Positions 13,747 through 59,492 of a stretch of DNA of 64,000 nucleotides are shown here, piece after piece. The stretch covers positions 1,302,001 through 1,366,000 of the forward strand of contig NZ_CP007264.1 in assembly GCF_000585495.1 (NCBI RefSeq). Direction: 5' to 3'. Under the pieces are notes generated by a model that saw only the letters and a list, made by a program, of their open reading frames with translations, did no database searches and was not told the origin of the DNA. The stretch comes from Thermococcus nautili. Its GTDB lineage: Archaea; Methanobacteriota_B; Thermococci; Thermococcales; Thermococcaceae. Within the stretch, counting starts at the first letter, position 1. Every line of letters starts with the position of its first letter. The position numbers were made by a program, and so were the translations under genes.

Positions 13747-13758
13747 ATCCCTACACCT

Positions 13759-14886: not shown

Positions 14887-14895
14887 TTTATCCAC

Positions 14896-15963: not shown

Positions 15964-15976
15964 TCCCTTACCACCG

Positions 15977-16948
15977 TTACTCCTTTTTCTCATACTCCAA
16001 CTTCTTCAATCTGTAAAGTACATCATCCAATAGCATCCTCTGGGACTTAAGCATATCTGCCAACAATCCCAAAACTACCGTTTGAACCCCTATTATAAGC
16101 AACAAAGTTGCAAGTATCGCGGAAGGTAACCTGCTACCAACGCTTCCAGTGGTGTAGTAATATGAAAGGACCCTCCACCCAAAGTACAATCCGACGATTA
16201 TAAAAATGGCCCCTACAATTCCAAAAACCTTCAATGGATTGTAATCCCTGTATGACCTCAGTATTATCATACCTGCTCTTTTGGCATATCCAAAGATGTT
16301 TGAAATCAACCTGGATTTTCCGTCTCCCTGTCTCTTTCTAAACTGCACAGGTACTTCAACAATCTTTAATCCGTAGTGATTTGCCTGGATAATAGTCTCC
16401 TGGACATAAGTATAATCCGCCAAAACATGTAATCTCATCGCAGCATCCCTTGAAAAAGCTCTAAATCCAGTTTGCGCATCAGATGTCGGAAATCCTGAAG
16501 CAATCCTTGTTACCCACGTTGCTATTTTATTTCCAATGCGCTTCTGCATTGGCATGTACTCAATCCATCCTTTAAACCTTGAGCCTAAGACTATGTCGGC
16601 CTTGCCATCAAGTATTGGTTTCACTAATTTTGGAATCTCTTTGGCGTTGTACTGGCCATCGGCATCGATGTTAACAATTATATCCGCGCCGATTTCAAGG
16701 GCGGTTTCTATTCCCTGCCTGAATGCCCTCGCTAGCCCTCTGTTCCTCCTGAAGCTAACCACTATATCTGCTCCAGCTTCTTTGGCGACTCTTGCGGTGT
16801 TATCTTTGGAGCCATCATTAACAACGATTATTTTGATATCATCTATTTTCCCTTCAAAATCATCAGGCTTAAGCTCCCGTATTTCTCTGATGACATTGGG
16901 AATTGTTTTCTCTTCATTGTATGCGGGAATCGTGACTGCAAGCTTCAT
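15977..16948 (-). CDS. GT2 glycosyltransferase, dolichyl-phosphate sugar synthase-like
   Basis: 323 aa. The GT-A domain (residues 1-230) has IPAYNEEKTI, VVNDGSKDNTA, NIDADGQY (metal-binding DxD) and GSRFKG. Two membrane spans follow (about 238-260 and 278-305), then a basic coiled tail. This build is that of dolichyl-phosphate mannose/glucose synthases that charge a polyprenyl phosphate with one sugar. It is the first gene of the minus-strand glycan operon. GC content is nearer the genome average than that of the following genes. Confidence 0.88.
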   Translation of the reverse strand: MKLAVTIPAYNEEKTIPNVIREIRELKPDDFEGKIDDIKIIVVNDGSKDNTARVAKEAGADIVVSFRRNRGLARAFRQGIETALEIGADIIVNIDADGQYNAKEIPKLVKPILDGKADIVLGSRFKGWIEYMPMQKRIGNKIATWVTRIASGFPTSDAQTGFRAFSRDAAMRLHVLADYTYVQETIIQANHYGLKIVEVPVQFRKRQGDGKSRLISNIFGYAKRAGMIILRSYRDYNPLKVFGIVGAIFIIVGLYFGWRVLSYYYTTGSVGSRLPSAILATLLLIIGVQTVVLGLLADMLKSQRMLLDDVLYRLKKLEYEKKE

Positions 16949-29169: not shown

Positions 29170-29188
29170 TTCCACGCCACGTGGAAAA

Positions 29189-29199
29189 CTTTATTTATC
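29189..29199 (+). promoter_or_regulatory. Promoter of the cyclase-repeat/cetZ operon
   Basis: CTTTATTTATC with an upstream GGAAAA (BRE), about 33 nt before ATG 29232. Confidence 0.5.
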
Positions 29200-29231: not shown

Positions 29232-31457
29232 ATGAACAGGATAGCGGCGGTTTTAATGGTTCTCCTCCTGGTAATTCCCGGCGCTTACGCTGGCCAAATC
29301 AGCTGGAGCGTTAACTTTCTCGAAGATACCTCTTCCAACGTTCAGAGCGTTCGAGAAATGAGCCTCGTTCTCATGGCCCTGTCCGGTGCCCAGAAAGCCG
29401 TTGGTAACACGTCTGCCGATAAAATCGACTCCCTCGCCATGAGGCTGCTCTCCCTTCAGAACTCCGACGGCGGGTGGGGTTACCTTCCGAACGAGACAAG
29501 CAACGTGGTTGACACTTCTTATGCCCTTATTGCCCTTCTTAAGGCAGAACCTTACGTTTCTCCGGTTCACCGCTCCGCTCTCATCGAGGGTGTTTCGGGT
29601 GCGGTGTCGTACCTTCTCACGTCATCGTCCGGTAATGGCTGGGGCTACGTCCCGGACAGTGCTCCCGCCTTCTACCCGACCGTCATGGCCGTCTGGGCCC
29701 TCGGTGAGTACGGCTACTACTATACTGAGAGCCCAATAAAGAACGCAGTCGGCTTCCTCCTCTCCGCCCCCTCGACCCTCCCTGCTCCTCAGGCTCTTGC
29801 GCTCAAGGTTATAGCCCTCCACGCCGTTAACTACCCTGTGCCCGACGACATCGTCTCCAACGTTGAGGAACTCCTCAGGAGCGACTCTATAACGACCCTC
29901 GACAGGGCCATGCTCACTTATGCCCTTGAGCTCGTCAGGCCCCTTGACTTCACCACCTCCTTCTTCGTGAGCAAACTGCTCGAACTCGCCAACGTTTCCG
30001 GCGACTACGCCTACTGGCTCTCGTCGCCAACGTATCCCCTCACGACTCCCGAGGTAGTCAAGACGTCTGCATTCGCACTCATGGCCGTTGCATATCTCGA
30101 GCAGTACACCCCTCAGCTTCCTGCTGAGCAGAACCCCTACGTTGCCCCGTGCTCCGCCCTTGAGTCCCTCCAGAACGACGACGGGGGCTGGCCCCTTGTT
30201 AAACCCGGCCCGTCAAACGAGAAGGCAACCTACTACGCCCTCCTCGCTCTCAAATACTGCGTTCCGACCAACAAGTCCGTCGAGAAGGCTCTCTCGTGGG
30301 CCAGGGAAGCTCTTACCGTCGATGGGGCGAGGATGGTGAGCACCCACAGGTTCTCCCCCGCTTACTTCTACGCCCTTGAGACACTGCTCCACTCCAACGC
30401 CCTCTCGGCGGAGGAAAAGGAGAAGGCAATCAACGACATAATCTCCTCCCAGCTTCCCTATGGAATTGGCCTCTGGGGCAACAACCTTGGTCCCCAGCCC
30501 TACCAGACGGCACTCGCCGTCAGGGCTCTCGTTGACCTCGGCGTTCCTGCCAACGACTCCCTCATCCAGCGCGCAGTTAAGTGGGTTCTGGACACCTCCA
30601 ACGGGGGATGGGGAATCTACGTTTCGACGCCCTACTTCTCCTACATGCTGAGGCCCGACGTCATGACGACCGTTTCGATAATCGAGGCCCTTCAGGGAAT
30701 CGTGCCCGAGGACAAGCTCAGGCCCCACGCGGACTGGCTCGTTTCCCAGCGCGTTGACGGTGGCTGGGCCTACTGGAAGCCCTACTACGATCCGATGAGC
30801 GGCCGCGTTATCCAGGAGAAACCCACCGTTGAGCTGACCGTCCGCGTCACCGACGTTCTGGCTGAGTTCGGCTACAACTTCAGCAGGGACACCCTCAACT
30901 TTGTCATCGGGGCCAAGCAGAGCGGCGAAATCAACGGAAAGTCCGTCGAGACGGCCTTTGCAGTGATGTACCTTTCCCGCTACAAGTTCGTTCCGAAGGT
31001 CACCCTTGATGACGTCAGGCTGGCCCTCGGTTCGGAGCTCTTTACACTCGTGACATCCGGACTCTCCAAGAACGAGACCGAAAAGGTTGTGGGTTCTCTC
31101 ATCGAGCTCTACGGGAACTCCTTTGTGGTTGCCAACACGACTGAAATCGGTGAGGGTTACTACATAGTCGTGGCGCCCTACGGAAGCTACAATGTCTCAG
31201 CATACAACCCCTACCTCAGCTTCCGCGTTGAGAATGGAAGCGTAGTGGTGGCCAACTACACCGCGCCGGTGGATTCCTCGATAGTGCTGGTTCCAGGTTA
31301 TACCGCAAAGGGGAAGGTACTCTTCGTGTTCTACTCCCCATCGAGCAGGTGGATGGCCGTCGAGCTATTCACAACGGGCTTCATACGCTACATTCACGGT
31401 GATGCAATGGTGCTGACGTACGAGAACGACAGGTTCATCCAGAAGGTCGTGGGGTGA
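29232..31457 (+). CDS. Secreted protein with prenyltransferase/squalene-cyclase-type repeats
   Basis: 741 aa. Signal peptide at 1-20 (NRIAAVLMVLLLVIPGAYA). At least five QW-like alpha-toroid repeats: LQNSDGGWGYLPN, GNGWGYVPDSA, LQNDDGGWPLVKP, TSNGGWGIYV and QRVDGGWAYWKP, each followed by a helix with xxALxALxxY. The acidic DXDD of true cyclases is absent, so it is more likely a binding or scaffold protein of the alpha-alpha toroid type. A beta-rich C-terminal domain (about 640-741) follows. No membrane anchor at the end. GGGGTGTGA precedes ATG 29232. Genes to 32561 are 6 nt or less apart. Confidence 0.75.
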   Translation: MNRIAAVLMVLLLVIPGAYAGQISWSVNFLEDTSSNVQSVREMSLVLMALSGAQKAVGNTSADKIDSLAMRLLSLQNSDGGWGYLPNETSNVVDTSYALIALLKAEPYVSPVHRSALIEGVSGAVSYLLTSSSGNGWGYVPDSAPAFYPTVMAVWALGEYGYYYTESPIKNAVGFLLSAPSTLPAPQALALKVIALHAVNYPVPDDIVSNVEELLRSDSITTLDRAMLTYALELVRPLDFTTSFFVSKLLELANVSGDYAYWLSSPTYPLTTPEVVKTSAFALMAVAYLEQYTPQLPAEQNPYVAPCSALESLQNDDGGWPLVKPGPSNEKATYYALLALKYCVPTNKSVEKALSWAREALTVDGARMVSTHRFSPAYFYALETLLHSNALSAEEKEKAINDIISSQLPYGIGLWGNNLGPQPYQTALAVRALVDLGVPANDSLIQRAVKWVLDTSNGGWGIYVSTPYFSYMLRPDVMTTVSIIEALQGIVPEDKLRPHADWLVSQRVDGGWAYWKPYYDPMSGRVIQEKPTVELTVRVTDVLAEFGYNFSRDTLNFVIGAKQSGEINGKSVETAFAVMYLSRYKFVPKVTLDDVRLALGSELFTLVTSGLSKNETEKVVGSLIELYGNSFVVANTTEIGEGYYIVVAPYGSYNVSAYNPYLSFRVENGSVVVANYTAPVDSSIVLVPGYTAKGKVLFVFYSPSSRWMAVELFTTGFIRYIHGDAMVLTYENDRFIQKVVG

Positions 31458-31463
31458 AGGCCC

Positions 31464-32561
31464 TTGAGGGCCCTGATAATAGGAATCGGCCAGTGCGGGA
31501 CGAAGATAGCCGACCTGTTCGCGCTAGTTGACTTCGAAACCCTCGCGGTGAACACCTCCCGCGGCGACCTCGAGTACCTCAAGCACGTCCCACAGGACAG
31601 GAGGATACTCATAGGTGAGAGCCTCACAGGCGGTAAGGGCGTCAACGCTAACCCCATACTGGGCAGGGAGGCAATGAAGCGCGACCTGCCGCTGGTGATG
31701 CGCAAGATAAACTCCATAGTCGGCTACGAGGACGTTGACATCTTCTTCCTTACCTTTGGCTTCGGCGGTGGAACCGGTGCCGGCGGAACGCCCGTCCTGG
31801 CTGAGGCCCTCAAGGAGGAGTACCCTGATTCGCTCGTCGTTGCCATCGGCGCGCTCCCGCTCAGGGAGGAGGGCATAAGGCCCACCATCAACGCCGCCAT
31901 AACGATAGACAAGCTGTCCAAGATTGCGGACTCGATAATAGCGATAGACAACAACAAGCTGAAGGAGGGCAACGACGACATAAGCAGGGCCTACGAGAGG
32001 ATTAACTACACCATAGTCGAGAGGATAGCCTCTCTTCTGGCCCTCGTGGATGTTCCCGGCGAGCAGACCCTTGACGCGAGCGACCTCAAGTTCGTCCTCA
32101 AGGCCTTTGGAAGCTTCGCCACCGTTGGCTACGCGAAGGCCGAGGCGAGCAAGGTGAAGAGCCTGTCGAGGCTGATAATCAAGTCCTTTGAGAGCGAGGG
32201 TCTCTACCTCGACGCCAACATCGAGTCCGCCCTCTACGGCCTCGTCGCGGTACACGGCCCGCCGGAGGTTCTCAAGGCTGGAGACATCTTCGAGGCCCTC
32301 GATTACCTCACGAGCAAAATCAGGGGCAAGCAGATTTTCAGGGGCTTTTATCCGGACCCGCGCGAGAGAGAAGTTGAGGTCGTCACGCTCCTCAGCGGAA
32401 TCTACGAGAGCAGGAGCATCGAGGAAATCGTCAAAACCGCCAAGCAGTACGCGAGGTCCTTCATGGAGGCCAAGAAAGAGGCGGAAACAAAGAAGAGCGA
32501 GCTCCTCAGCGGTTTGCCCGACTTCGACGACATCTACCCAGTTCCCGAGGGTGAGGAGTGA
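31464..32561 (+). CDS. cetZ: Tubulin-like protein CetZ
   Basis: 365 aa. GIGQCGTKIAD is the N-terminal nucleotide motif, GFGGGTGAGGTP is the tubulin/FtsZ signature, and NNKLKEGNDDISRAYERIN and PGEQTLDASDLK are in the activation domain. CetZ proteins are archaeal cytoskeletal GTPases that shape the cell and help place motility structures (shown in Haloferax). TTG at 31464 is used, with GGGGTGAAGG 3 nt upstream. The stop overlaps the next start (ATGA). Its place before a pilin-like operon invites a link in positioning. Confidence 0.92.
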   Translation: MRALIIGIGQCGTKIADLFALVDFETLAVNTSRGDLEYLKHVPQDRRILIGESLTGGKGVNANPILGREAMKRDLPLVMRKINSIVGYEDVDIFFLTFGFGGGTGAGGTPVLAEALKEEYPDSLVVAIGALPLREEGIRPTINAAITIDKLSKIADSIIAIDNNKLKEGNDDISRAYERINYTIVERIASLLALVDVPGEQTLDASDLKFVLKAFGSFATVGYAKAEASKVKSLSRLIIKSFESEGLYLDANIESALYGLVAVHGPPEVLKAGDIFEALDYLTSKIRGKQIFRGFYPDPREREVEVVTLLSGIYESRSIEEIVKTAKQYARSFMEAKKEAETKKSELLSGLPDFDDIYPVPEGEE

Positions 32562-33178
32562 TGGAGAACATCAAGGACTCGGTGGAGGTCGCGCTCGAAC
32601 TCGATGAGAAGTCCGTTTACTCTCACATCGCCCACGAAAGTGCGGAGGATATAATCCGGATTATCTCCTCCCTCGACGCCGAGAGGGCAAAGCTTCGTGG
32701 GGAGGTCATTTACTACACCGACGACTGGGACGCGCTGATAAGGGAGAGGATGGCCAAGGGAAAGCGTCATACGGCCTTCGACTTCTACAACCCCGCCCTG
32801 CTCGACATCTGGGAGGAGAAGGTTAAACTCGGGAAGAAGCTCAAGAGGCTTGAAAGGCTCTCCTACGCGGTTCTCGGGACTGTTGTTGGGCTGACCGGCC
32901 TTGCGACGGTTCTGATGGGCACACCGTTCATCCTGCTCGGTCTTGCCATTCTCCCCCTGGCGGTCGCCGTGAGGGACAGGGTGAAGAGCTCGCTCGACCT
33001 GCTCTACTACGAACTCACCCAGTTCTTCATAGATGAACTCCGGGCAATCGTCACCAAACACGGGCTCACCCCCGAGAAATACAAGTTTAAGCTGTTCACA
33101 GGGGGTTATTTTGGCGTAGAAACAAAGAGAACGCCTTCGGGCATATTTGCGGTCGTTGAAGACAAATCTGGGGAGTAA
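32561..33178 (+). CDS. Two-span membrane protein coupled to cetZ
   Basis: 205 aa. Soluble N-terminal part (1-105) with a charged, probably helical stretch (SAEDIIRIISSLDAERAKL), a hydrophobic hairpin (about 108-150: LSYAVLGTVVGLTGLATVLM and FILLGLAILPLAVAV), and a C-terminal soluble part. ATGA overlap with cetZ implies coupled translation and possibly a membrane anchor for the polymer; this is inference. No family recognised. Confidence 0.65.
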   Translation: MENIKDSVEVALELDEKSVYSHIAHESAEDIIRIISSLDAERAKLRGEVIYYTDDWDALIRERMAKGKRHTAFDFYNPALLDIWEEKVKLGKKLKRLERLSYAVLGTVVGLTGLATVLMGTPFILLGLAILPLAVAVRDRVKSSLDLLYYELTQFFIDELRAIVTKHGLTPEKYKFKLFTGGYFGVETKRTPSGIFAVVEDKSGE

Positions 33179-33222: not shown

Positions 33223-33837
33223 ATGGGGTTAGTCCTTAGAAGGCGCGGTCAAATTTCGCTTGAGTTCATGCTTGTGTTCTCGATAATGCTGATTATGCTA
33301 CTCTACTCAGTCAAGAACGTGGGGTTTGATTCAAGCTCTCCCTCCTCGGGTACCCTGGCGATTCAAATCGCCCTTGAGGAAAAGAGCGTTGCGAACGTTA
33401 TAGCCGGGGCAATTGACCAGGTTTACGCCCAGGGTCCGGGGTCAAAGGTTACCGTTTACGCGCACTTCAACCTGCTCCGCAACTCCGAGTACCTCTCCAA
33501 GGCATTTAACCTGACATCCCCTCAGGTTCAGTTGCTTTTCATAGGGACTAACGACCCGCTCTTCCCTACCGGCGCTGAGAACTCCGTGGTTGCCGTCGCG
33601 GTCGCCAACTCAACGGTCGGACCCGTGCTTACCGGCTCCAACAGAACAGGTGTCTGGGTTCAGACCTACTTCCTGTACAATTCCACGACACAATCAAAAT
33701 TCATGGTTCCGCTCAACCCGGCAGACGTGCCCGGGACGATGAGAATTGTTGTTGAATGGAACCCTGAGTTGCCGGTTTCGATGGCGTACAACGCCACGTC
33801 TAAAACGCTCTACATAAACATCAAGCCGGGTGCCTGA
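33223..33837 (+). CDS. Class III signal-peptide pilin-like protein
   Basis: 204 aa. MGLVLRRRGQISLEFMLVFS: basic leader, then the QxSxE motif and a hydrophobic helix, the type III (DUF361) pre-pilin signal of euryarchaea cut by EppA. The rest is beta-rich, with several N-x-S/T sequons (NSTVGP, NRTGV, NSTTQ, NATSK) for AglB. Likely the main subunit or an early minor pilin of a type IV pilus-like fibre. GGAGGGAGTGAG precedes ATG 33223. No EppA or pilus ATPase is inside this window. Confidence 0.78.
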   Translation: MGLVLRRRGQISLEFMLVFSIMLIMLLYSVKNVGFDSSSPSSGTLAIQIALEEKSVANVIAGAIDQVYAQGPGSKVTVYAHFNLLRNSEYLSKAFNLTSPQVQLLFIGTNDPLFPTGAENSVVAVAVANSTVGPVLTGSNRTGVWVQTYFLYNSTTQSKFMVPLNPADVPGTMRIVVEWNPELPVSMAYNATSKTLYINIKPGA

Positions 33838-33838
33838 A

Positions 33839-34267
33839 ATGAGGGGTCAGATAAGTCTTGACCTGCTCTTTGCAGTCGCCATAATCTCGATAACCATGCT
33901 GAGCGTGATGAACGTTGCCCTGAGCGAGAAGACTGAGACCGAGGTCCTCGGCACGTCGGCCCAGCTGAAGGCCTTTGCCATAGACATAAGAGGAACTGTC
34001 GCGAGGCTCTACGCGTCCCCTGGAATCACCGTTGTGAAGGAGTCTCCCGTTGAGCTTGGGCCAGGGGAGTGGATTAACGTGACCCTGAGGGCCGATGGAT
34101 ACCTGCAGATTCGCGCCCAAATCGGTGGTAGGGAGTACGTTGTGGTGGAGAAGCTCCAAGTGCCCCCTGGAACGACGAGCTCGGTCCTGCTGACCCAAAC
34201 CATGAGGGAGTTTAAACTGTCGTCTAGGAGGTTGCCCGATGGTGTGGAAGTCGTCGTCGAAACGTAG
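33839..34267 (+). CDS. Small class III pilin-like protein
   Basis: 142 aa. MRGQISLDLLFAVAIISITM repeats the pre-pilin motif with Asp for Glu at position 5 of the mature helix. A beta-rich domain follows with GPGEWINVTLRADGYLQI. ATG 33839 is one nt after the upstream stop; GTG 33830 would overlap. The next gene overlaps by 29 bp. Its size suggests a minor pilin that starts assembly. Confidence 0.72.
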   Translation: MRGQISLDLLFAVAIISITMLSVMNVALSEKTETEVLGTSAQLKAFAIDIRGTVARLYASPGITVVKESPVELGPGEWINVTLRADGYLQIRAQIGGREYVVVEKLQVPPGTTSSVLLTQTMREFKLSSRRLPDGVEVVVET

Positions 34268-34709
34268 GGGTCAGACCGCAATCGAGTTGCTGTTCATAAC
34301 TGCGATAATCCTGACCGGGATAGTCTACATTCTCCCCTCCGTCGTGTACTCGAATCAGGCTGTCTCGCTCTCGGATGCCTTCAGAACCGCCGGTTCGGAC
34401 GTTTGCTCTTACCTCAACACCGGCGTCGTGGTCAACGACTCCCTTCACGCGCCCCTCAACAACCTCGTTGAGCTGTGGAACTACACCCCCCTTGGGTGTC
34501 GCTTCGTTGGCCTGTCCGTTGAGACGAACTCCTCCGTTAACGCAACACTCGTCTTCGAGTATCCAGGGGGAGCCTTTCCCAACGCCTTTGAGGGCAACGT
34601 GACGCTCTACCTTAAGCTCAGGCTTTCGCGTATCTCGGGCTTCAAGCTGGTCGGCGAGAACCTGTACTACGGCGAGAAACCGGTTAACATTACGGTGGTG
34701 GTGAGATGA
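34239..34709 (+). CDS. Pilin-like protein with class III-type leader
   Basis: 156 aa. MVWKSSSKRRGQTAIELLFI has a basic leader and Q-x3-E before the hydrophobic segment (about 15-35). Two cysteines (SDVCSY and LGCRF) could bond. Sequons NDSL, NSSV, NATL, NVT. GGAGGT at 34227-34232 precedes ATG 34239. Ends in an ATGA overlap with the next gene. Confidence 0.7.
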   Translation: MVWKSSSKRRGQTAIELLFITAIILTGIVYILPSVVYSNQAVSLSDAFRTAGSDVCSYLNTGVVVNDSLHAPLNNLVELWNYTPLGCRFVGLSVETNSSVNATLVFEYPGGAFPNAFEGNVTLYLKLRLSRISGFKLVGENLYYGEKPVNITVVVR

Positions 34710-36505
34710 GGCGAGGTCAGCTCTTGAGTTTTGATGCCCTCCTTGCGATTGTTATAGTGATATTCATGCTCGGCGCGGTTAGTGCTACCTCCGACAACCT
34801 GAAAGCGGGCATAACGAACCTTCTCGGCTGGTATGACAGGACGAGCATTCCAGATACCATGCTCGATGTTCTCCTCCAGAGCGCGGGCACTCCCTCAAAC
34901 TGGGACGAGAACATCTCAGCCCTCGTGGTTCCAGGACTGAGGGCGTCCTCCGGCCAATACGTCGACTACAACAAGGCGGTTACCTTCTTTGACCTGCTCA
35001 AGAACAACGATTCCCGCGTTCAAAGTGCCCTCCTGAACCTCAGTCTGGGTCACCCGTTCCTGCTCGATTTCTATTTGGGCAAGTGGTCATTTGAGGCCAA
35101 CTTCACATGGAACCCGAACGCGGGAGGAGGTATTCCGCCGGGTGTGGTTCAGTATGACTGTAACAATGCAACTAAAATTCAGGCTAGTGCTTATCCTGTT
35201 TTAATAAACTGTTCTAATCTCTTAGTTAATTACCATATTTCATCATTCTGTTCAATATGCACAACGGGCTCAGTAACTTTACGGACCAGACCGGAATCTG
35301 AAATTGATATTATTGGGGGATACTATCAGTGTCCCAATCTATATCTTGCCATTGGAGGAACCCTTAGTGTGTATGGTGGTGCTGCTAGAGCGGTAAAAGT
35401 GGAGGAAGGGTCTATCTATATTAAGGGGGGCATAACCTTAAGAGGTTCTGCAAATCTCCATATTACCGCTATGTACAATTTGTATGTGTTTAGCGATGGG
35501 GCGTCATCGCCTATTCTAGATTTCAGTGGGGGTGCTAATACAACTGTTGATGTTGGGTATGGAGGAGGCGGAAACTTGTATATTAAGGTTGGGGACACTT
35601 GGTATGCTGTTACGGGAAATCCTGCTGATAAGGATAACTGGTACCGGTGGGATAATGACCATTGGATTAAAGCTCCTGAGGAGATTAGTATAAAGGACGT
35701 TGGTGCCGGAAAGTTTGTAGTATATGCTGGTTCGATTCAGGTAATCGATGCAAGTGGGGCGAATATACAGTTTAATATTAGGGGTATTTCACCTCCTCCC
35801 TTGGAGTGGCAACCCGTTGTTCCTTATTGTTGGCAACTGGGTCCCTCTGGTCCGCCCCTAACTGTCTTCTCTCTCGAGGGCAACTACATCTACCCTCAAC
35901 AGCTCAACGCGAGCCAGGCATGGAATCGCGTCGCGTACCTCAACGGCTCGTTCCTTGTAAATCCAACCAACGTTTCCAGTGTGCTGAAGGCCAGGGCAAA
36001 CGCGAGTTGGGTGTCATACTCGGAGAGGAACACCGTTATCAGCATGTTCCAGTACAACAGAACCACTACTATCGTCGGCAACGCTTCGGGAATAATCCTG
36101 GCAGGTGTCCTCCGCTATGATATTCCAGACTACGCCATGCTCCGCGTGGATGTCCCGGCTGAGAGTGGTTACGTTCTTCTTGTGGCAGTTGATGGAGGAA
36201 CACTCAAGGCTATAGGCTTTTGGAAGACCTCTCCAGAGGACGCCCTCAATGCCGAAGTTTGGGAGTCGAGCGGCGGAAACGTCAGCGTGGTTGCAACATA
36301 TCGGGGCTCAAACACCTCTGTAACGATTCCCTGGGGTGTAATATTCAGCGGGCCGGCCGGATTTGGCAGGCCGGTCATGCTGTACCTGTACTCCAACGGC
36401 TTCACTGGGCCCGTTACCCTAACCGATGAAGGGGACATCGGTGTTTTGATGACCCCTATGTACGAGCCTCTGCTTGTAAAACTCTGGGTGTGGGATGAAC
36501 CATGA
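34706..36505 (+). CDS. Large pilin-like protein with AT-rich central insert
   Basis: 599 aa. MRRGQLLSFDALLAIVIVIF has an RRGQ leader with the acidic residue one place later than in the smaller pilins. Residues about 148-365 (35150-35800) are encoded by AT-rich DNA unlike its flanks. For example, 35161-35220 has 18 G/C of 60, against 30 of 60 in 34981-35040. The insert is Gly/Thr/Ile-rich and short-repeat-like (LYLAIGGTLSVYGG, YIKGGITLRGSANLHI), which suggests a beta-helix or beta-solenoid. Both ends resume normal codon use. Possibly a pilus tip adhesin. 4-bp overlaps on both sides. Confidence 0.7.
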   Translation: MRRGQLLSFDALLAIVIVIFMLGAVSATSDNLKAGITNLLGWYDRTSIPDTMLDVLLQSAGTPSNWDENISALVVPGLRASSGQYVDYNKAVTFFDLLKNNDSRVQSALLNLSLGHPFLLDFYLGKWSFEANFTWNPNAGGGIPPGVVQYDCNNATKIQASAYPVLINCSNLLVNYHISSFCSICTTGSVTLRTRPESEIDIIGGYYQCPNLYLAIGGTLSVYGGAARAVKVEEGSIYIKGGITLRGSANLHITAMYNLYVFSDGASSPILDFSGGANTTVDVGYGGGGNLYIKVGDTWYAVTGNPADKDNWYRWDNDHWIKAPEEISIKDVGAGKFVVYAGSIQVIDASGANIQFNIRGISPPPLEWQPVVPYCWQLGPSGPPLTVFSLEGNYIYPQQLNASQAWNRVAYLNGSFLVNPTNVSSVLKARANASWVSYSERNTVISMFQYNRTTTIVGNASGIILAGVLRYDIPDYAMLRVDVPAESGYVLLVAVDGGTLKAIGFWKTSPEDALNAEVWESSGGNVSVVATYRGSNTSVTIPWGVIFSGPAGFGRPVMLYLYSNGFTGPVTLTDEGDIGVLMTPMYEPLLVKLWVWDEP

Positions 36506-38748
36506 GGCGAGGCTTTGTGTTCACCCTGGACGCTGTCCTTGCCCTCTTCCTTGTCTTAATCATGATAACCGCAATTACAACGGCCGAGAGTCAAGTTCAG
36601 TCTGTTTACAAAACGAAGATGCGTATGGGAGAGCTTGGAGACGCGAACGCAATGCTTAAACTTCTTAGAACGGTTCCGCTAAGTCAGCTCGTCCCGGCTA
36701 GCGTTATCCAGGACTGGGAGTCAGGAACTGACCCGGTTCTTAACCTGACCCTGGTCACCCCGGATATGAGCCCTCTTGAGATAGCCGCCACGTACTGGGC
36801 CGTGAGTCCAATTTATCCTGGCCAGGATTACAGAAAGAAGGCCTCTGTAATCCTCGGCTACATTCTGAATTCGACTCTTAGGGGTTACAACTACGAGCTC
36901 CTCATAAACAACTGGACGAACGCGTTCATGAGCAAGGGGGCCTATAACTACTCCCTCGCTAAGGACGTGTCCTCAGCGACCCTTGTACTCAGTGGTTACG
37001 CCTACAACCAGACTCCCCGGGGCTACGTTGCAAGGGCATTCCTCAGCAAGCTGAAGGCCAAGGTTACGAGCTACACTTACTTTGGTAGCTCTGCGTTTGC
37101 TTATGGTCCAAACGAGAACGACTATACTGTGGTTAGGTATTACATCCCAAACGAAGGTGAACTTCCAGTTGATGCAAATATTACTGAAGTAGAGTGGTTC
37201 CCTCAGCCGAGATGGTTTAGCTGTGGAGGAAGTTATTCGTACATGGAGCTATATATTGATGGGGAGCCTGTAAAGTGTGGTCAGTTTAAGGAAGGCCAAT
37301 TTGTGGCATATAAAACGTGGGAAGTCCTTAAGGATGATAGCTTGACAAATAGTTGCAACATATTGGATATATTGAAGCGTCACTCCGACCTAAGAAGGCA
37401 CGTGTTTGAGGTGCGTGTTTATAATCCTTGTGCAGGGGGTGTTCATCCGAACTCCTTTATAACAATCAAGTATACAACCTCCCAGGCAAACACCTTCAAC
37501 TATCCACACCAGTTCCACTTTGATGAGATAATCACCAGGCACCCATTCCAGGTTGAAAACGCAGTGTTTATCCCTGGCCAGTTCAGGAACATGAGCGTCC
37601 AGGTGAAGATAATAAACGCCTCGGAGGTTGGCAAAGCTCCGAAACTTTACATCACGTATAGGGACAAGCGGGTTGAGATTGGTTACGGAACTTACATTGG
37701 TGATGATACCTTCAAGTGGACTAACGAGCAAATCTTATCGAAATTGGAGGGAGAAGGGATAACGTCTGATGAGTTATCGGATACATATCTATGGTTTGCT
37801 GTCACATTTGGAATGGATTATAAATCCCCATTATATCCTCCAACGGTGACCTTTAACTCGGAGGTTAAGCTTGATTTCCAAGACTCATATGTGGACATTG
37901 ATTATGTCCCATCAACATACATCTCGATGTATTCAATAGACATTACTCGGTCAATAACCGCGGAAGATGTCGTTAATGAAGAATATGAAAAAAGTAAGTA
38001 TGGCACTGAATTTTACACCATGCTTGAGTGGAGGTTTAACATCTCTGAATCAGCAACGCCCCTCTTTGCTCGTCTTCATATCGTGAGATTACACACAATA
38101 GGGTGTGATGAGGATAGTTACGACCAGAAACTCTACATTAAGAATGACAAAATCTCATGGACTACAGTCTACTGTCATGGGGGGAACTGTAATCCGAATA
38201 ATCCGTTTATTGACCCAGGGTTTACTAGGTGGGGCTTTGTGAATGGGATGCCTGATTATAGGGGCAATCCTATTAACGACGCCCTGTACCCAGGTGATAA
38301 TTATATCGAAGCCAAAACCGGTTCGTGTTACGTTATGTCAAAAGAGTTCACTACTGGGGACTATACATACCTCCTCAACGCCTACGCTCCCTACGGCAAC
38401 GTCAAGCCCTACCTCATGCAGGGATATCCGAACATCAAAGCCTACAACCTAACCTATGCGTACGATGTAGGCGGTTCCGTTGAGTACGGCTCTATAATAG
38501 TTGGCGATACGAAGGCGATAGCCAGTGGAGAATACGCCAACATAACTGCCTGTCAGCTCGACCCCGATAAATACGCCGTTGACGACGCCGTTTTGAGGCT
38601 TTTCAAGAACCTTGGGGGAGATGGCTGTACAAAGCCCGTGCTCGTTGACCTGGGGGACACGATGATAAGCTACGTCTCCCTTCCGGGCGTTCCCAGGTCT
38701 ATATCTCCGATAACGGTGACCCTTAGGATATGGAGGGTGGGAGGATGA
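36502..38748 (+). CDS. Very large pilin-like protein, mosaic centre
   Basis: 748 aa. MRRGFVFTLDAVLALFLVLI: the RRG leader remains, but Gln is replaced by Phe, and Asp is at place 6. Residues about 210-625 (37130-38370) are AT-rich (21 G/C of 60 in 37981-38040) and contain several cysteines (FSCGGSY, VKCGQF, TNSCNIL, NPCAGG, YCHGGNCNPN). Flanks use the normal GC-rich codons. It may be an adhesive minor pilin whose centre is exchanged. No known domain recognised in the centre. Confidence 0.68.
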   Translation: MRRGFVFTLDAVLALFLVLIMITAITTAESQVQSVYKTKMRMGELGDANAMLKLLRTVPLSQLVPASVIQDWESGTDPVLNLTLVTPDMSPLEIAATYWAVSPIYPGQDYRKKASVILGYILNSTLRGYNYELLINNWTNAFMSKGAYNYSLAKDVSSATLVLSGYAYNQTPRGYVARAFLSKLKAKVTSYTYFGSSAFAYGPNENDYTVVRYYIPNEGELPVDANITEVEWFPQPRWFSCGGSYSYMELYIDGEPVKCGQFKEGQFVAYKTWEVLKDDSLTNSCNILDILKRHSDLRRHVFEVRVYNPCAGGVHPNSFITIKYTTSQANTFNYPHQFHFDEIITRHPFQVENAVFIPGQFRNMSVQVKIINASEVGKAPKLYITYRDKRVEIGYGTYIGDDTFKWTNEQILSKLEGEGITSDELSDTYLWFAVTFGMDYKSPLYPPTVTFNSEVKLDFQDSYVDIDYVPSTYISMYSIDITRSITAEDVVNEEYEKSKYGTEFYTMLEWRFNISESATPLFARLHIVRLHTIGCDEDSYDQKLYIKNDKISWTTVYCHGGNCNPNNPFIDPGFTRWGFVNGMPDYRGNPINDALYPGDNYIEAKTGSCYVMSKEFTTGDYTYLLNAYAPYGNVKPYLMQGYPNIKAYNLTYAYDVGGSVEYGSIIVGDTKAIASGEYANITACQLDPDKYAVDDAVLRLFKNLGGDGCTKPVLVDLGDTMISYVSLPGVPRSISPITVTLRIWRVGG

Positions 38749-41700
38749 AAAGGCGCGGCTTTATAATAAACTCAACAGTCCTCGTTCTGCTCATACCCTT
38801 ACTCCTGCTCCTTGCAACGTACAGCAACGTTACTTCCTACGTTCTTCAAGCACAGTCGCAGGCAGCTCGTCTAAAAACAACGCAGGACGTGGTCTCGTAT
38901 CTCCAATTTGACCTTCAGAACGTTATGCGTCTGTCCCTAAAGAGGGCCCTCGTTCTCAGCATTGCCTTCGTTACAACTGTTGAGCCCCTTGACAACGCTC
39001 AGCTTGCCCTGGAAAGTCTGGTTAAGTATGGAAGCTACTCGCAGATAAATTCTGCTGGTGCCGATTGGATTTCTCGGGAAAGGCAGTTCATGGGCAACGC
39101 AACCCTGCTCGATTGGCTGAACAACATGAGGGACTACCTGGCAACCATGGGTTATAGAATGGTCACTCCACCATCCCAGATACTCAATGACATCCGCCTT
39201 ACTATAGCCCCCCTTGATTCGTTCCATATCGTTGCAAACATCACGATTCCCCAGATTGTCATAGAGGATTCCTCCGGCAAGATAGTTTACAACTCCAGCA
39301 TACCTCCTACGGGCTCCCTTTACGTCGTCGTGCCTGTGACAAACCTTGAAGACCCTCTGATTTCCTACCTAACCAAGGGTAGGCTATCTCGGGTTATCGT
39401 CCCCTGTAAGTTCGCATATCCAAACATAACCCCTCCGTATTATCTCGTAAACGGCTATGGCGACCCCCAGACAAAGCCCCTTAAGTTTGCGGCCCCATTT
39501 GCTTCGGCCATCTCCTCCGACGCAATCTACTATGGGGACACATACCCGGGCGGCGGTGCTCTAGCTTACGTTCTCAAAGAGCAGCCGACAACAACCCCGA
39601 GCTCCGCCTTTGTTTTTGACACCCGCGTAAATGGGTCCCTGATTTCTCCGGCTAGTGTTTTCAACGATGGGGACATGGGCGTCATGGTGTTCTCCGGTAG
39701 GGTTGGTGCTGGGACTTCCTGGTGCAACGACAACTATCAAATGAAGGCTGGCTTTACGCTCTCGGGAGTCTCTGATGGACAGATTGTTCTCCTGAAGTTC
39801 AACCCCTCCTCTGTCCCGTTCTCTCAGATACGTCACAATGGAGCGTATGCGGACATGGCAATATACACATCCAGCTGTACCCTTGCCAATTACTGGATTG
39901 AGAAGTGGGACTCAAACGAGATTCTTATATGGCTGAAGGTTACGGGTACCTCCTATTCAATCTACTATTCCTCCGATGGAACCCAGCCTCTGAGCAGGGG
40001 GCAGTTGTACTACGTTTTCGGGGATAACTACACAGAGAACGTTGACCTCTCTCCGGGTCAGTCTATGTTCCTCTTCAACACCGATTCTCCCGTCTTTGTC
40101 CGCTACAACGCCTCCGCATCTGCTAATTCTGACTTTGGTGGGGGGGTTGAGCTTAACGTTCCGGCACTGGTGCCGTCAAATGTTCTTAAAGTTTCCATTG
40201 ACTATCCCTATACCGTTTCAGACGTGCAGGTTCCAATTTATCTGAACTCAACCTGGGCATCGCGGATTCCACACTCTGGGAACGAAGCCCAAATCGAGGT
40301 CTACTCTGATTCCGGCCTGACCCAGCGGTTGCCCTTCTGGATTGAGTACTGGAACGACAACGGGGCCCTGATATGGGTCAGGACTAGCGTTCCAGGCGAC
40401 GTCTACATTAAGTTCGGAGACGACCTACCGCTCACCAGAGGGGATGGGGATGAGGTGTTCTTGTTCTTTGATGATTTTAACGAGAGCCTGAGTCAGCTTG
40501 AGGAGAAGTGGATAATAGACCCGTACAATCAAGGTGTGTCCGTGAGCATAAATCCCTCAGGAAACGGTACCATGACGATATCCGGTGGAGATTCGATATT
40601 CGCCATGAGGAACAAGAACCCCCTCGATATAACTAGCGACTTCGTAGTTGAGTTCAGGATGAAACCAAACTTCACTTACGTCGGTGACTGGGATGCAGGG
40701 ATTGGACTGTGGGATGGAGAGTGGGGGTATTATGATGAGAGTGGTCCTTGGTGGGATAGGACTTATTACTACCTCCTCCAGCAGCTCTTCACGGACGACA
40801 TTGGATATTATGGTAACCCTCTATCAATCCACTGGGCTGAGTGGGAAACGAGGAAGTCAAACCCGACATCTATACAGGACTTTAGTCTGTACTATTTCTG
40901 GGCCGAGGAAGACTCAGATTCTGACATAACAACCAACAGGGACTATGGCTTCCACACCTATGAGGTCATCGAGTTATTATCTCAAGATGAGACCTACTTC
41001 AAGGACCTAACCCGTGGAGAAACAAACACGTACGATAGTGATTACACTACCCTTGACTTCCTCAAGTACATCTACCTCGTCATAGACAGCGAGGAAAAGA
41101 GCAGGGGGGCAGTCTTTGACTGGATTTTCATCAGAAAATACCTGAATCTCGCAGACCTAGACGAAAGTATCTCCCGGGTTTATACCCCTGAGCCAATTTC
41201 ATTCCAGCTCGTTGACAACTGGACGACGGCTGGAAGACTGTTCATACTCCAGGACTGGGGGACAACCCTCGCGAGCTACTCAACTGGCACCTGGCCGATT
41301 AACGTTCCCAACCGCTATGAGGTTGATGTGGTGCCTTCCAGCACTGGGCTCTTCCTCAACTACACTCACAACCCCAACTCCGTGATTCCCGAGAACTCAA
41401 GGACGGTGGTGGATGTTTCCATCGCCGGTGACGTTGGTGTCTACCTTACTGTAAGAAACAGCGCTGGAAACTCCGCCCACTTTTCCTGGGTCTTCTGGGG
41501 TCCGTACCCCTACGCCGTTCTTTCGCCCCTCGTTGGGGTTCCCGAGCAGAAGCCACCAGAGGGCAACTATGTGACCGCGAGGGTCTTTGACATTCAGCCA
41601 TTCCGCCAATGCGTTATCGACGAAAGGTACTTCGGTGTCGCGGGTGCTCCATCCTTCTTCGAGCGCCTTGAGGGTGGAAGCTCGGCACACCGCGCCCACT

Positions 41701-42029
41701 ACATCTCCCTGGCTGAGGCTATGCAGAGGGCGGTTTACGGTGGTGTCAGATATCCGATTGGCCTGGTGAGCTTCATACTTCCCAAGAACCTTCCGGCAAA
41801 CCTTAACTTCCTGGTTCGCGAGCAACCTGCGGTTGACTACATATACCTTGACTACGCTGACTATCCAGGTGACGACCCAGACGCAATGCAGGTCCTTGGA
41901 ATCTCAGCCACGGGAGGAATAACGTCAACTCCCGTCCTGGACCAGAACTTTTACCTTACTCCGGCCACCGCAAGCCTCATATTCGGCCCGTACGCCAACG
42001 ACCTGCTCGTTCCAATAGGCTCAGGGTGA
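38745..42029 (+). CDS. Giant pilin-like surface protein with DUF2341/lectin-like domains
   Basis: 1094 aa. MKRRGFIINSTVLVLLIPLL has only a trace of the pilin leader (RRG) with a hydrophobic helix. Around residues 480-570 and 800-805 lie DUF2341-type parts (IDYPYTVSDVQVPIYL, FWIEYWNDNGALIWV, VYIKFGDD, FLFFDDFN, FDWIFIRKY), a concanavalin-like module common in archaeal surface proteins. A similar shorter copy is at about 380-430 (YWIEKWDSNEILIWL). ATG 38745 forms ATGA with the previous stop. It is probably the outermost, ligand-binding part. Confidence 0.72.
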   Translation: MKRRGFIINSTVLVLLIPLLLLLATYSNVTSYVLQAQSQAARLKTTQDVVSYLQFDLQNVMRLSLKRALVLSIAFVTTVEPLDNAQLALESLVKYGSYSQINSAGADWISRERQFMGNATLLDWLNNMRDYLATMGYRMVTPPSQILNDIRLTIAPLDSFHIVANITIPQIVIEDSSGKIVYNSSIPPTGSLYVVVPVTNLEDPLISYLTKGRLSRVIVPCKFAYPNITPPYYLVNGYGDPQTKPLKFAAPFASAISSDAIYYGDTYPGGGALAYVLKEQPTTTPSSAFVFDTRVNGSLISPASVFNDGDMGVMVFSGRVGAGTSWCNDNYQMKAGFTLSGVSDGQIVLLKFNPSSVPFSQIRHNGAYADMAIYTSSCTLANYWIEKWDSNEILIWLKVTGTSYSIYYSSDGTQPLSRGQLYYVFGDNYTENVDLSPGQSMFLFNTDSPVFVRYNASASANSDFGGGVELNVPALVPSNVLKVSIDYPYTVSDVQVPIYLNSTWASRIPHSGNEAQIEVYSDSGLTQRLPFWIEYWNDNGALIWVRTSVPGDVYIKFGDDLPLTRGDGDEVFLFFDDFNESLSQLEEKWIIDPYNQGVSVSINPSGNGTMTISGGDSIFAMRNKNPLDITSDFVVEFRMKPNFTYVGDWDAGIGLWDGEWGYYDESGPWWDRTYYYLLQQLFTDDIGYYGNPLSIHWAEWETRKSNPTSIQDFSLYYFWAEEDSDSDITTNRDYGFHTYEVIELLSQDETYFKDLTRGETNTYDSDYTTLDFLKYIYLVIDSEEKSRGAVFDWIFIRKYLNLADLDESISRVYTPEPISFQLVDNWTTAGRLFILQDWGTTLASYSTGTWPINVPNRYEVDVVPSSTGLFLNYTHNPNSVIPENSRTVVDVSIAGDVGVYLTVRNSAGNSAHFSWVFWGPYPYAVLSPLVGVPEQKPPEGNYVTARVFDIQPFRQCVIDERYFGVAGAPSFFERLEGGSSAHRAHYISLAEAMQRAVYGGVRYPIGLVSFILPKNLPANLNFLVREQPAVDYIYLDYADYPGDDPDAMQVLGISATGGITSTPVLDQNFYLTPATASLIFGPYANDLLVPIGSG

Positions 42030-42034
42030 TGTAA

Positions 42035-42778
42035 ATGGCAGTGGACGAGTTCCTCTACTCAATCGGTGAGGGGGTAGAGCGCATCGCCTCCGCCTTCAGG
42101 TCTTTCCTTTTCCCGGAACCCGCCGAGAACCCACCGCGTTTCGGTTTCACGCGGAGGCTCGTTAAATCCAGGGTCACACTCCACGAGCTCTTCAGCCTTC
42201 ATCTTCAGCTCTGCTTCCTGCTCTACCTGGTCCTGAACTTTGTGGTGGTGTTCCTGGTGAGTAACCCCCTGTGGGTGCTCATCCTGGCGGTTCCCTACTT
42301 CCTGTACCTCCGCTATCTTTTCAACCGCTACGGTCACTTTCTCCTCGAGGAAAAGCCATACCTGGTGTTTTACACAGTAATTTCGGCGCTCTCTTTCCTC
42401 GCGTTCTTTGGCTACTCAATCGTCAGGCTCTACGCCGGTGGGGTCCTCTACGTCTACGCCTACGTGATGGGGATAGCCGTCCTCGTCCTGCTCTTCCGCT
42501 GGTACTTCAAGAGAACCTTTGGCAGGGACTACACGTACGGTGTCGTCGAGGAGCTCAAAGGCGACCTCGTCAGGGTCTTCGTGCACGATGACCTCTCCGC
42601 CAACGTCAAGCCCGGCCTTTACTGGCTCCCGGCCGTTCCGGATGCGGAACCCGGCAGGGTCGTCAAGGTTCTCGTGGAGGACAGGGCCTTCAGGAGCGCC
42701 AAGCCCGTGAGGATAATCGAGGTCTATCTCTCTCAGTCCTCCCAGAGCTCCACCGAGCCGAAGAACGCTATGGAATGA
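42035..42778 (+). CDS. DUF2101 membrane protein
   Basis: 247 aa. Four hydrophobic spans between residues about 55 and 160, in pairs, with the C-terminal 80 residues soluble (RTFGRDYTYGVVEELKGDLVRVF, SANVKPGLYWLPAVPDAEPG). Archaeal DUF2101 proteins are of unknown function. It ends the pilin-like operon, starting 5 nt after the giant gene, and could be a membrane platform component. Its last 46 bp overlap a convergent gene. Confidence 0.72.
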   Translation: MAVDEFLYSIGEGVERIASAFRSFLFPEPAENPPRFGFTRRLVKSRVTLHELFSLHLQLCFLLYLVLNFVVVFLVSNPLWVLILAVPYFLYLRYLFNRYGHFLLEEKPYLVFYTVISALSFLAFFGYSIVRLYAGGVLYVYAYVMGIAVLVLLFRWYFKRTFGRDYTYGVVEELKGDLVRVFVHDDLSANVKPGLYWLPAVPDAEPGRVVKVLVEDRAFRSAKPVRIIEVYLSQSSQSSTEPKNAME

Positions 42779-57941: not shown

Positions 57942-59492
57942 TCAGCGCATCCACTTCCTCGCTATCACCGCGACGATGAGGGCCATAAAGACGGCTCCGG
58001 TTAAGGCTTCAAGGGCGCTCAGAGCCTTGAGCCAGCCGGTAGGATGCATGTCCCCGTAGCCAAGGGTCGTGAAGGTGACGAGGGAGTAGTAGAGGGCGTT
58101 GGCGAAACGGATGACAATGTTTGAGGTTTTTGGGAATCCCTTAATGAAGTTGCTCCATATTGTGTAGGGAATGGTGTTTCCAATGATTACCAAAAGCGAA
58201 AATAAAAACAGGCGAACCCAGTTCGTGCCGTATTCTGAGGGCAAATCTGCTAAAAGCCATTCAACAAAGTTATGGAGTCTTGCTTTAATCTGCTCGAACT
58301 TGCTCCTTGCGTTTTGTAAGCGTGCACGTCTCTTAGCTCTCATTTCTAGGACGAACATTCTATCGGCTTCGTCGCGTTTGCCCTCTTTTTCGTAACTGAG
58401 ACGTTGGACACGACGAGCTTCGATTTCCGCTTCGGGGAGTTTGAACCATTCAGTTGGGATGTCAATATCAATGCCTTTTCGGATGTCCACATGAGAAAAA
58501 TCGAGCTTTCCGTAGAATTTGAATTTTTCATTTTTAGGTTTCCCCTGGAAAGATACAGGCTCATTAAATGAAGCTCCCTCGAAGGAGACGTCTCCCTTAA
58601 AAACAGAGTCCGTAAAATAGACATACCCGTTGAAAGTTGTAGCTGAGAAGTCGGAGTTATTCAAGAATATTATGTTTTCAAAATTGCAACGAAGACCCAC
58701 ATATAATTCAGAGAAGTTTGCTTCGTCGATTTTACAGTTATGAAGTTCAAGAAATCCCGTAAACTGAGAACCTGAAAAGTCACCTGCCACAATTTTTGAG
58801 TTGGTTATAACGAATTCTTTGCCGATGATGCAATCATTTATACTTAATGAGAAGGCGTTGATATTCTTGAGTACAATATTCTGTAACTTAGAATCCCAAA
58901 ACGTTAACCCAATCTTAGTAAACTCAATGTTTTCTCCTAAAATCCCCTCTAGAGTAGATTCTATGAGGACTAGTTCTCCTCCAAAAATACAGTTATTAAA
59001 TATCAAAATTCCTGAGGGGGAATCAGTTACAATTTCAACATTTTCTTCAAATGTGCTTCCGGAAAAATCTAACCCCGGATACAGTCTTGTTTTGTGCAAT
59101 TTTAGCACTCCACTAAAGGTTACATCATGAAAATTAAAATACATATTGCTCTTAAATATTGAGTTACTTAAATTTATTTCATGTTTAAATACTGCATTTT
59201 CAAACGTAAATCTCTGATTCCACTCGTTGCCTTTCTTGTCCTTATATTCAATCGTCACGTCTGGAATTTCTGGGAAAACAAAACCTCTTGCATCCACAGG
59301 CTTTTCAAAAACAAATCTCTTTATTTTCCTTCCATCAACTTCAATCTCTTCAACATGTGGCTTAAATCTATCTAAGAACTTTTTATAGAACTCTACAGCT
59401 TCCTCCCCACTCTTATTTGGCTTATGAAAAATGCAGTACTCTTGGTCTGCTGTCTCAGTGTCGCAGTTCCCGAAGTGCGCCATCTTGCACAT
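57942..59492 (-). CDS. Pentapeptide-repeat-like protein fused to a K+ channel pore
   Basis: 516 aa. N-terminal Cys/His cluster MCKMAHFGNCDTETADQEYC plus IFH may bind zinc. Residues about 90-310 are pentapeptide-like turns (FSGVLKLHKTRL, DFSGSTFEENVEI, NCIFGGELVLI, GDFSGSQFTGFLELHNCKI, ANFSEL, FSATTFNGYVYF, SVFKGDVSFEGASF). A basic helix (about 340-400) leads to two membrane spans around the selectivity filter TFTTLGYGDMHPTG. A two-span K+ channel with such a sensor domain is unusual. The repeat-coding part is AT-rich (15 G/C of 60 in 59101-59160), a sign of transfer. Confidence 0.8.
   Translation of the reverse strand: MCKMAHFGNCDTETADQEYCIFHKPNKSGEEAVEFYKKFLDRFKPHVEEIEVDGRKIKRFVFEKPVDARGFVFPEIPDVTIEYKDKKGNEWNQRFTFENAVFKHEINLSNSIFKSNMYFNFHDVTFSGVLKLHKTRLYPGLDFSGSTFEENVEIVTDSPSGILIFNNCIFGGELVLIESTLEGILGENIEFTKIGLTFWDSKLQNIVLKNINAFSLSINDCIIGKEFVITNSKIVAGDFSGSQFTGFLELHNCKIDEANFSELYVGLRCNFENIIFLNNSDFSATTFNGYVYFTDSVFKGDVSFEGASFNEPVSFQGKPKNEKFKFYGKLDFSHVDIRKGIDIDIPTEWFKLPEAEIEARRVQRLSYEKEGKRDEADRMFVLEMRAKRRARLQNARSKFEQIKARLHNFVEWLLADLPSEYGTNWVRLFLFSLLVIIGNTIPYTIWSNFIKGFPKTSNIVIRFANALYYSLVTFTTLGYGDMHPTGWLKALSALEALTGAVFMALIVAVIARKWMR

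Follow-up and report, generated by a model that had tools for sequence, protein, structure and literature searches.

A minor-pilin operon of Thermococcus nautili with a leader register per gene and a probable exchange cassette of giant pilins

The DNA considered here, hereafter the window, is a stretch of 64,000 nt from Thermococcus nautili (GCF_000585495.1, NZ_CP007264.1:1,302,001-1,366,000, forward strand), in which six successive genes for pilin-like proteins (P1 to P6) are followed by a gene for a DUF2101 membrane protein (Table 1). A first-pass annotation made from the sequence alone had described these seven genes as an operon whose products grow from 142 to 1094 residues. A check of the open reading frames (ORFs) has borne out the frames, lengths and overlaps, together with a basic leader ending in RG and a hydrophobic helix in all six pilin-like genes. 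The growth is not monotonic, as P1 (204 residues) exceeds P2 (142) and P3 (156), and the seven genes, while real, belong to a longer unit of ten, comprising a toroid protein, CetZ, u206, P1-P6 and DUF2101, which probably starts from a promoter at 29183. This element lies directly 3' of a TYW1-like radical SAM gene and is kept in 8/8 relatives inspected, with GGAAAA(A/C)(G)TTTATTTAT as the shared form; a scan for bacterial sigma-70 promoters was set aside as inapplicable to archaea.

Across the 23 Thermococcaceae loci compared, the ten-gene unit is intact, its genes overlapping or separated by short gaps, with the exception of the toroid gene, which is absent from two loci (L036 and L055) and is thus dispensable. 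A few loci in which the ORF caller gave an opposite-strand ORF instead of u206, P2 or P3 were excluded from the counts. The u206 protein had no Pfam match. Overlaps of four bases between P3 and P4 and between P4 and P5 are conserved across most relatives and indicate co-translation; the fixed stoichiometric order that had earlier been read into them finds no support, and the gene order in methanogens is unlike that in Thermococcaceae. The toroid protein shows weak PDB matches to squalene-hopene cyclase, and its gene is a second allelic one besides those of the giant pilins, with 35-37% identity to the nearest relative as against 97% for CetZ and 97-99% for the flanks.

Table 1. Features of the operon, in window coordinates (aa, amino acids; a slash marks the predicted leader cleavage site, from which mature residues are numbered).
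Feature	Position	Strand	Description	Evidence
Archaeal promoter	29183-29198	+	B recognition element (BRE)/TATA-like, GGAAAACTTTATTTAT; probable operon start	Sequence
Toroid protein	29232-31457	+	Secreted, alpha/alpha (squalene-cyclase/prenyltransferase-like), 741 aa from ATG 29232	Pfam SQHop_cyclase, E 6e-11
CetZ	31464-32561	+	Tubulin-like, 365 aa	Pfam Tubulin 2e-30, CetZ_C 9e-17
u206	32558-33178	+	Cytosolic/membrane protein, 206 aa	Conserved position between CetZ and P1
P1	33223-33837	+	Minor pilin, 204 aa, RRRG/QISLEF (E+5)	Pfam Class_IIIsignal 5.6e-5
P2	33839-34267	+	Minor pilin, 142 aa from internal ATG, MRG/QISLD (D+5)	
P3	34239-34709	+	Minor pilin, 156 aa, RRG/QTAIE (E+5)	
P4	34706-36505	+	Giant minor pilin, 599 aa, RRG/QLLSFD (D+6)	
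P5	36502-38748	+	Giant minor pilin, 748 aa, RRG/FVFTLD (D+6)	Predicted beta-sandwich domain chain
P6	38745-42029	+	Giant minor pilin, 1094 aa, KRRG/FIINST, no acid at +5/+6, Pro13	
DUF2341 domain within P6	40293-40511	+		Pfam PF10102, E 6.7e-17 to 6.8e-17
DUF2101 membrane protein	42035-42778	+	Last gene	Pfam PF09874, E 4.4e-72
Putative tip cassette P4-P6	34706-42029	+	Hypervariable, very probably horizontally exchanged	Alignment breaks, tree conflict, AU tests, protein identities

All six slots carry a class III leader, that is, a basic segment, a G/A cleavage position and an immediately following hydrophobic helix, in 23-24 relatives each. With the leader G/A taken as the cleavage site, every slot shows its own register. 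Gln at +1 is combined with Glu at +5 in P1 (24/24 relatives) and P3 (23/23), with Asp at +5 in P2 (23/23), and with Ser at +4 and Asp at +6 in P4 (24/24). P5 has Phe at +1, Thr at +4 and Asp at +6 in 23/23 proteins with a readable leader. In the 24 P6 proteins, Phe or Tyr at +1 is followed by an invariant Asn at +4, by S, M, A or T at +5 and by T, S or A at +6, never by an acidic residue. Such invariance over 23-24 relatives shows that the leaders are not due to chance; cleavage after the leader glycine is a prediction for all of them. The class III motif that had been noticed in the first three proteins is plain to the eye, while the Pfam profile (PF04021) scores P1 marginally, just below the cut-off, gives a weak match to P3 and misses P2. 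The registers extend to other phyla, where most P4- and P5-like proteins have Asp at +6 and the P6-like proteins keep an aromatic residue at +1, no acid and a Pro at +13. This apparent code, with an acid at +5 in P1-P3, Asp at +6 in P4 and P5 and no acid in P6, seems to be new, as no description of per-slot registers or of cross-phylum slot counterparts was found in the open-licence literature. A bacterial tip-capping K subunit also lacks Glu5 (PMC9934059), which by functional analogy makes P6 the natural candidate for a cap. Searches of PDB sequences and folds gave no GspK or pilin homology for P6, which may therefore act like GspK and is not classed as GspK.

The peptidase, ATPase and platform that the first-pass annotation had suggested looking for have all been located elsewhere in the genome. 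An EppA-type prepilin peptidase is encoded at G000:C1:981797-983014 (PF06819, E 1.4e-31), directly preceded at 981.6 kb by a class III pilin of 58 residues (MRRAQTALEYLF); a second small stand-alone pilin, of 64 residues, lies at 357 kb, so that small candidates for a major pilin are at hand. A T2SSE ATPase ORF and two T2SSF platform proteins occupy G000:C1:1557236-1562838, with DUF515 also within 1557-1565 kb, and from the gene arrangement and the DUF515 neighbour alone the ATPase may be placed in clade 1 of Makarova et al. The ATPase ORF (L075:7215-10838, corresponding to G000:C1:1559215-1562838) is 1207 residues long and contains a LAGLIDADG intein (Intein_splicing 5e-24). The archaellum operon is separate from the ATPase/platform locus and adjoins EppA (L071/L072). 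The archaellum was considered as the partner machine and is less likely, since it has its own ATPase and its archaellins bear a different leader (RRGAVGIGTL).

What is dispersed in T. nautili is found together elsewhere: the module adjoins EppA in two further archaeal phyla, and in Hadesarchaea it lies next to ATPase/TadC. About ten methanogen-like loci hold EppA, P1, DUF2101, P4, P5 and P6 in this order, Hydrothermarchaeum and relatives hold EppA, three or four E+5 pilins and DUF2101, and one Hadesarchaea contig (L093) carries P1, P4-like, P5-like and P6-like genes, DUF2101, EppA, two TadC and the ATPase. When thermococcal P4, P5 and P6 were compared with their methanogen namesakes by hhalign, same-slot pairs gave E-values of 4.5e-14, 7.8e-13 and 7.2e-11, and off-diagonal pairs were much weaker. 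Methanogen P5 is already about 700 residues long; P6 (about 355) and P4 (about 300) are smaller. By profile comparison, each of the three large slots is matched by its own counterpart in a second archaeal phylum, a correspondence that was not found described in the same literature. A search of the class to which another archaeon (G060) belongs gave no EppA, so a direct link to Methanococcus could not be drawn.

The machinery and its linkage in other archaea lend computational support to the earlier view that oversized minor pilins are built into a type IV pilus-type filament, and the locus can with high confidence be regarded as the minor-pilin set of an EppA-type pilus. The pilus idea itself had been published for Thermococci by Makarova et al. 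(2016; PMC4858521), and the linkage of CetZ to pilins by Brown and Duggin (2023; PMC9856176). The former text, in the sections consulted, describes EppA, an ATPase, two TadC, small stand-alone major pilins and at least five minor pilins, and proposes DUF2341 proteins as PilY-like tip adhesins; it places the minor pilins near the base, draws the adhesin role by analogy, and holds neither the leader-register code nor the orthology of the giant slots, the DUF2101 linkage or the cassette exchange. The latter paper reports the same locus, with cetZ beside 5-6 predicted pilins in all 15 Thermococcales examined there; it centres on CetZ and does not analyse the pilins, their variability or DUF2101. 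The locus is therefore of a known kind, and the leader code, the slot orthology across phyla and the exchangeable cassette, which would belong to the tip, are what is added here. A filament is not the only arrangement that EppA processing would allow. P4-P6 could be membrane-anchored class III surface proteins resembling the sugar-binding proteins of the Sulfolobus bindosome, or parts of a short secretion pseudopilus, and their very large ectodomains, the beta-sandwich chain with BcsB/PNGase-like matches and the secreted toroid in the operon would suit such a role. The invariant registers per slot, the small E+5 pilins in the same operon and the linkage to EppA and the ATPase speak for a filament instead, and large modular minor pilins are known in bacteria, all of which makes a non-filamentous function quite unlikely.

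The three giant pilins differ sharply from one close relative to the next, while the genes on either side change little. For nine close pairs of relatives, defined by a CetZ identity of at least 95.5%, median protein identities are 95% for TYW1, 97% for CetZ, 87% for P1, 86% for P2 and 79% for P3, followed by 38% for P4, 56% for P5, 54% for P6 and 76% for DUF2101. At the DNA level (L048/L054, L050/L056, L049/L045, L045/L040 and L032/L033), alignments continue without a break at 82-92% identity from the upstream flank as far as P3 or the start of P4 (no further than P1 in L050/L056), are lost over all or part of P4-P6, and are recovered within DUF2101 or just ahead of it. The breakpoints vary between pairs, and the difference in L045/L040 is confined to the distal parts of P4 and P6. 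Phylogenies point in the same direction. In the P5 and P6 trees, L054, L032, L033 and L056, all with a short P6 and a long P5, group together with 100% support, whereas the TYW1+CetZ tree distributes them over three separate clades. For P5 and P6, the species groupings are rejected by approximately unbiased (AU) tests (p 6.6e-79, 1.7e-42, 1.0e-58 and 1.5e-4), and so is the cassette grouping when the flanks are tested (p 1.2e-4). The same divergence might be attributed to fast drift of exposed domains under diversifying selection, since surface proteins evolve fast and the divergence of P1-P3 rises in a graded fashion. Drift is nevertheless improbable as the sole cause, given the well supported conflicting clades, the AU rejections, the abrupt alignment breaks and the behaviour of single pairs: P5 is 92% identical between L045 and L040, whose P6 proteins share about 51-54%, yet it is only 50-51% identical between L045 and L049, which have the more similar flanks. 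Horizontal exchange of the P4-P6 cassette between species is consequently very probable on these sequence comparisons.

DUF2101 appears to take part in this variation through its N half, which shows 42-95% identity in close pairs as against 83-95% in the C half. This half varies with P4-P6, which hints that it may contact the tip proteins. A shufflon or a gene-conversion source was also considered and rejected, as no recombination signals, no repeats or inverted repeats (33-43 kb) and no silent P5/P6 copies in the genome were found. In this respect the cassette differs from the PilV shufflon of I-complex plasmids (PMC9045228), in which a minor pilin adhesin likewise joins a constant part to an exchangeable ectodomain that sets the bound cell, but where a dedicated recombinase makes the exchange within one plasmid rather than between lineages. 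A hypervariable pilin cassette in Thermococcus was not found described in the open-licence literature (supplements excluded). The main text of a genome-scale variability survey that includes Thermococcales names one other variable pilin family, arCOG04026 (PMC9425974). A hypervariable immunoglobulin-domain gene module of Thermococcales, for which self/non-self recognition has been proposed, also involves a large surface protein; its genes are different and are not pilins (PMC8416519).

The ectodomains of the giant pilins appear to be modular. P6 consists of a near-constant N core (215-242 residues) and C core (112-155 residues) enclosing a removable middle of 29-755 residues that falls into discrete size classes, and DUF2341 occurs in 15/23 P6 proteins. 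A second DUF2341 protein, of 478 residues with a Sec-type N terminus and not a pilin, is encoded alone at L077:6515-7951 (G000:C1:728515-729951). The AlphaFold2 (AF2) model of P6 (predicted local distance difference test, pLDDT, 83; predicted TM-score, pTM, 0.49) opens with a long N-terminal helix, after which come beta domains. For this model Foldseek returned ConA-type lectin domains (legume, Emp46 and calreticulin) at the level of fold class (TMt 0.40-0.52, root-mean-square deviation about 8-12 A); the middle of P6 had no PDB sequence match. P5 is modelled as a beta-sandwich chain (pLDDT 80) with weak BcsB- and PNGase-like matches, and a bactofilin-like insert is present in P4 of 2/23 relatives. 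PDB sequence searches with P5 and P6 profiles returned nothing useful. As the fold matches of both proteins are weak or at fold-class level, a lectin function for P6 is no more than a reasonable guess. The receptor-binding domains of clostridial neurotoxins rank high among the fold matches of P6, but kinship with them was rejected (TM about 0.1-0.3, no sequence similarity), a generic lectin-like jelly roll being the better description. Likewise, P6 is not identified with PilY1/PilC adhesins, which are secreted non-pilin proteins with a C-terminal beta-propeller: its leader is of class III, Pfam assigns it no domain of that kind, and only DUF2341 is reported as shared. The adhesive, lectin-like tip of the first-pass annotation is plausible from DUF2341, the jelly-roll fold class and the acid-free P6, and we infer it on these grounds, lectin activity and ligand included.

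Two studied systems bear on what such a tip might do. The Epd pili of Methanococcus maripaludis (EppA/EpdA-C) share the EppA dependence, a small major pilin with Q+1/E+5, a minor pilin operon and a DUF2341 gene (PMC3875500, PMC10133366), and the minor pilins of this EppA/Epd system are required for piliation (PMC3875500). In the portions of these texts consulted, the minor pilins have 130-156 residues and other pilin-like proteins 200-299, the six tested are all E+5, and giant D+6 or acid-free pilins are not described. A transposon screen for transformation in M. maripaludis hit eppA, epd pilin genes and, in a homologous cluster type, a DUF2341 gene (PMC10133366), and the same pilus might accordingly take up DNA, with the giant minor pilins forming a DNA-binding or transformation tip rather than a surface or partner adhesin. 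A uniform DNA ligand would give no reason for the exchange of 7 kb of ectodomain or for lectin-like modules, and the screen does not readily tell an effect on piliation from one on transformation, so that this function is considered unlikely. In Streptococcus sanguinis, PilA/PilB/PilC, like GspHIJK, form a tip complex encoded in one operon, with modular pilins, grafted lectin modules and one subunit without Glu5; the largest modular pilin described there, the lectin-bearing PilC, is about 53 kDa, and the system is bacterial, with no evidence of homology beyond the pilin helix (PMC9934059).

Taken together, the observations favour an EppA-dependent, 'Epd-like' pilus, probably of Makarova's clade 1, whose modular minor pilins form an exchangeable adhesive tip, a model that is considered probable as a whole. 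Once the prepilins are inserted in the membrane, the EppA-type peptidase, whose gene lies 0.35 Mb away, would cleave them behind the leader glycine, and the ATPase/TadC machine, from a locus at a distance of 0.2 Mb, would polymerise a filament composed mostly of the small stand-alone major pilins. P1-P6 would form the initiation and tip complex, in which P1-P3, with their acid at +5, may join it to the filament, P4-P6 may act as modular pilins with large beta-rich ectodomains, and the acid-free P6 would most likely cap the tip as GspK does, displaying DUF2341/lectin-like modules that may bind glycans or surfaces. That P4-P6 sit at the tip and are adhesive is judged somewhat more probable than not. 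Through their exchange as an allelic cassette, neighbouring lineages would bear the same pilus with different tips, for reasons that may lie in surface, partner or virus specificity. The fuller proposal, for which the chances are about even, is that this cassette sets what each lineage sticks to (a surface, a partner, or not its virus) while body and CetZ are kept, with breakpoints from P3/P4 to the N half of DUF2101, and that the leader code arranges the subunits, beginning at the filament and ending with the cap. Several points weigh against the model. The machinery and the minor pilins are split over three loci in this genome, so that the case for their partnership draws on homology and on the linkage seen in other phyla, and no experimental work on a member of this protein set from Thermococcales was found in the open-licence literature. 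The groups compared in the AU tests were picked after the trees had been seen, and the trees were quick ones. AF2 confidence is low at the P5 N terminus, the pTM of P6 is only 0.49, and the matches to small lectins reach a TM of about 0.5, at fold-class level.

Archaeal minor pilins are mostly annotated as hypothetical, and with a set of slots that is fixed across phyla, each slot having its own leader register, simple point mutations could probe the order of assembly and the identity of the tip. Exchangeable giant tip subunits would be an archaeal counterpart to the phase-variable pilus adhesins of bacteria, and P4-P6 offer a concrete place to seek partner, surface or virus specificity in the genetically tractable Thermococcus.

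Two further regions of the window were noted apart from the operon. An AT-rich island at 11464-16948, with a core GC content of 33% as against about 55%, carries minus-strand genes for three glycosyltransferases and a DUF2206 membrane protein and is probably a foreign-derived island for surface glycans. At 57942-59492, in a local AT-rich stretch, lies a gene for a pentapeptide-repeat protein of 516 residues fused to an ion-channel pore domain.

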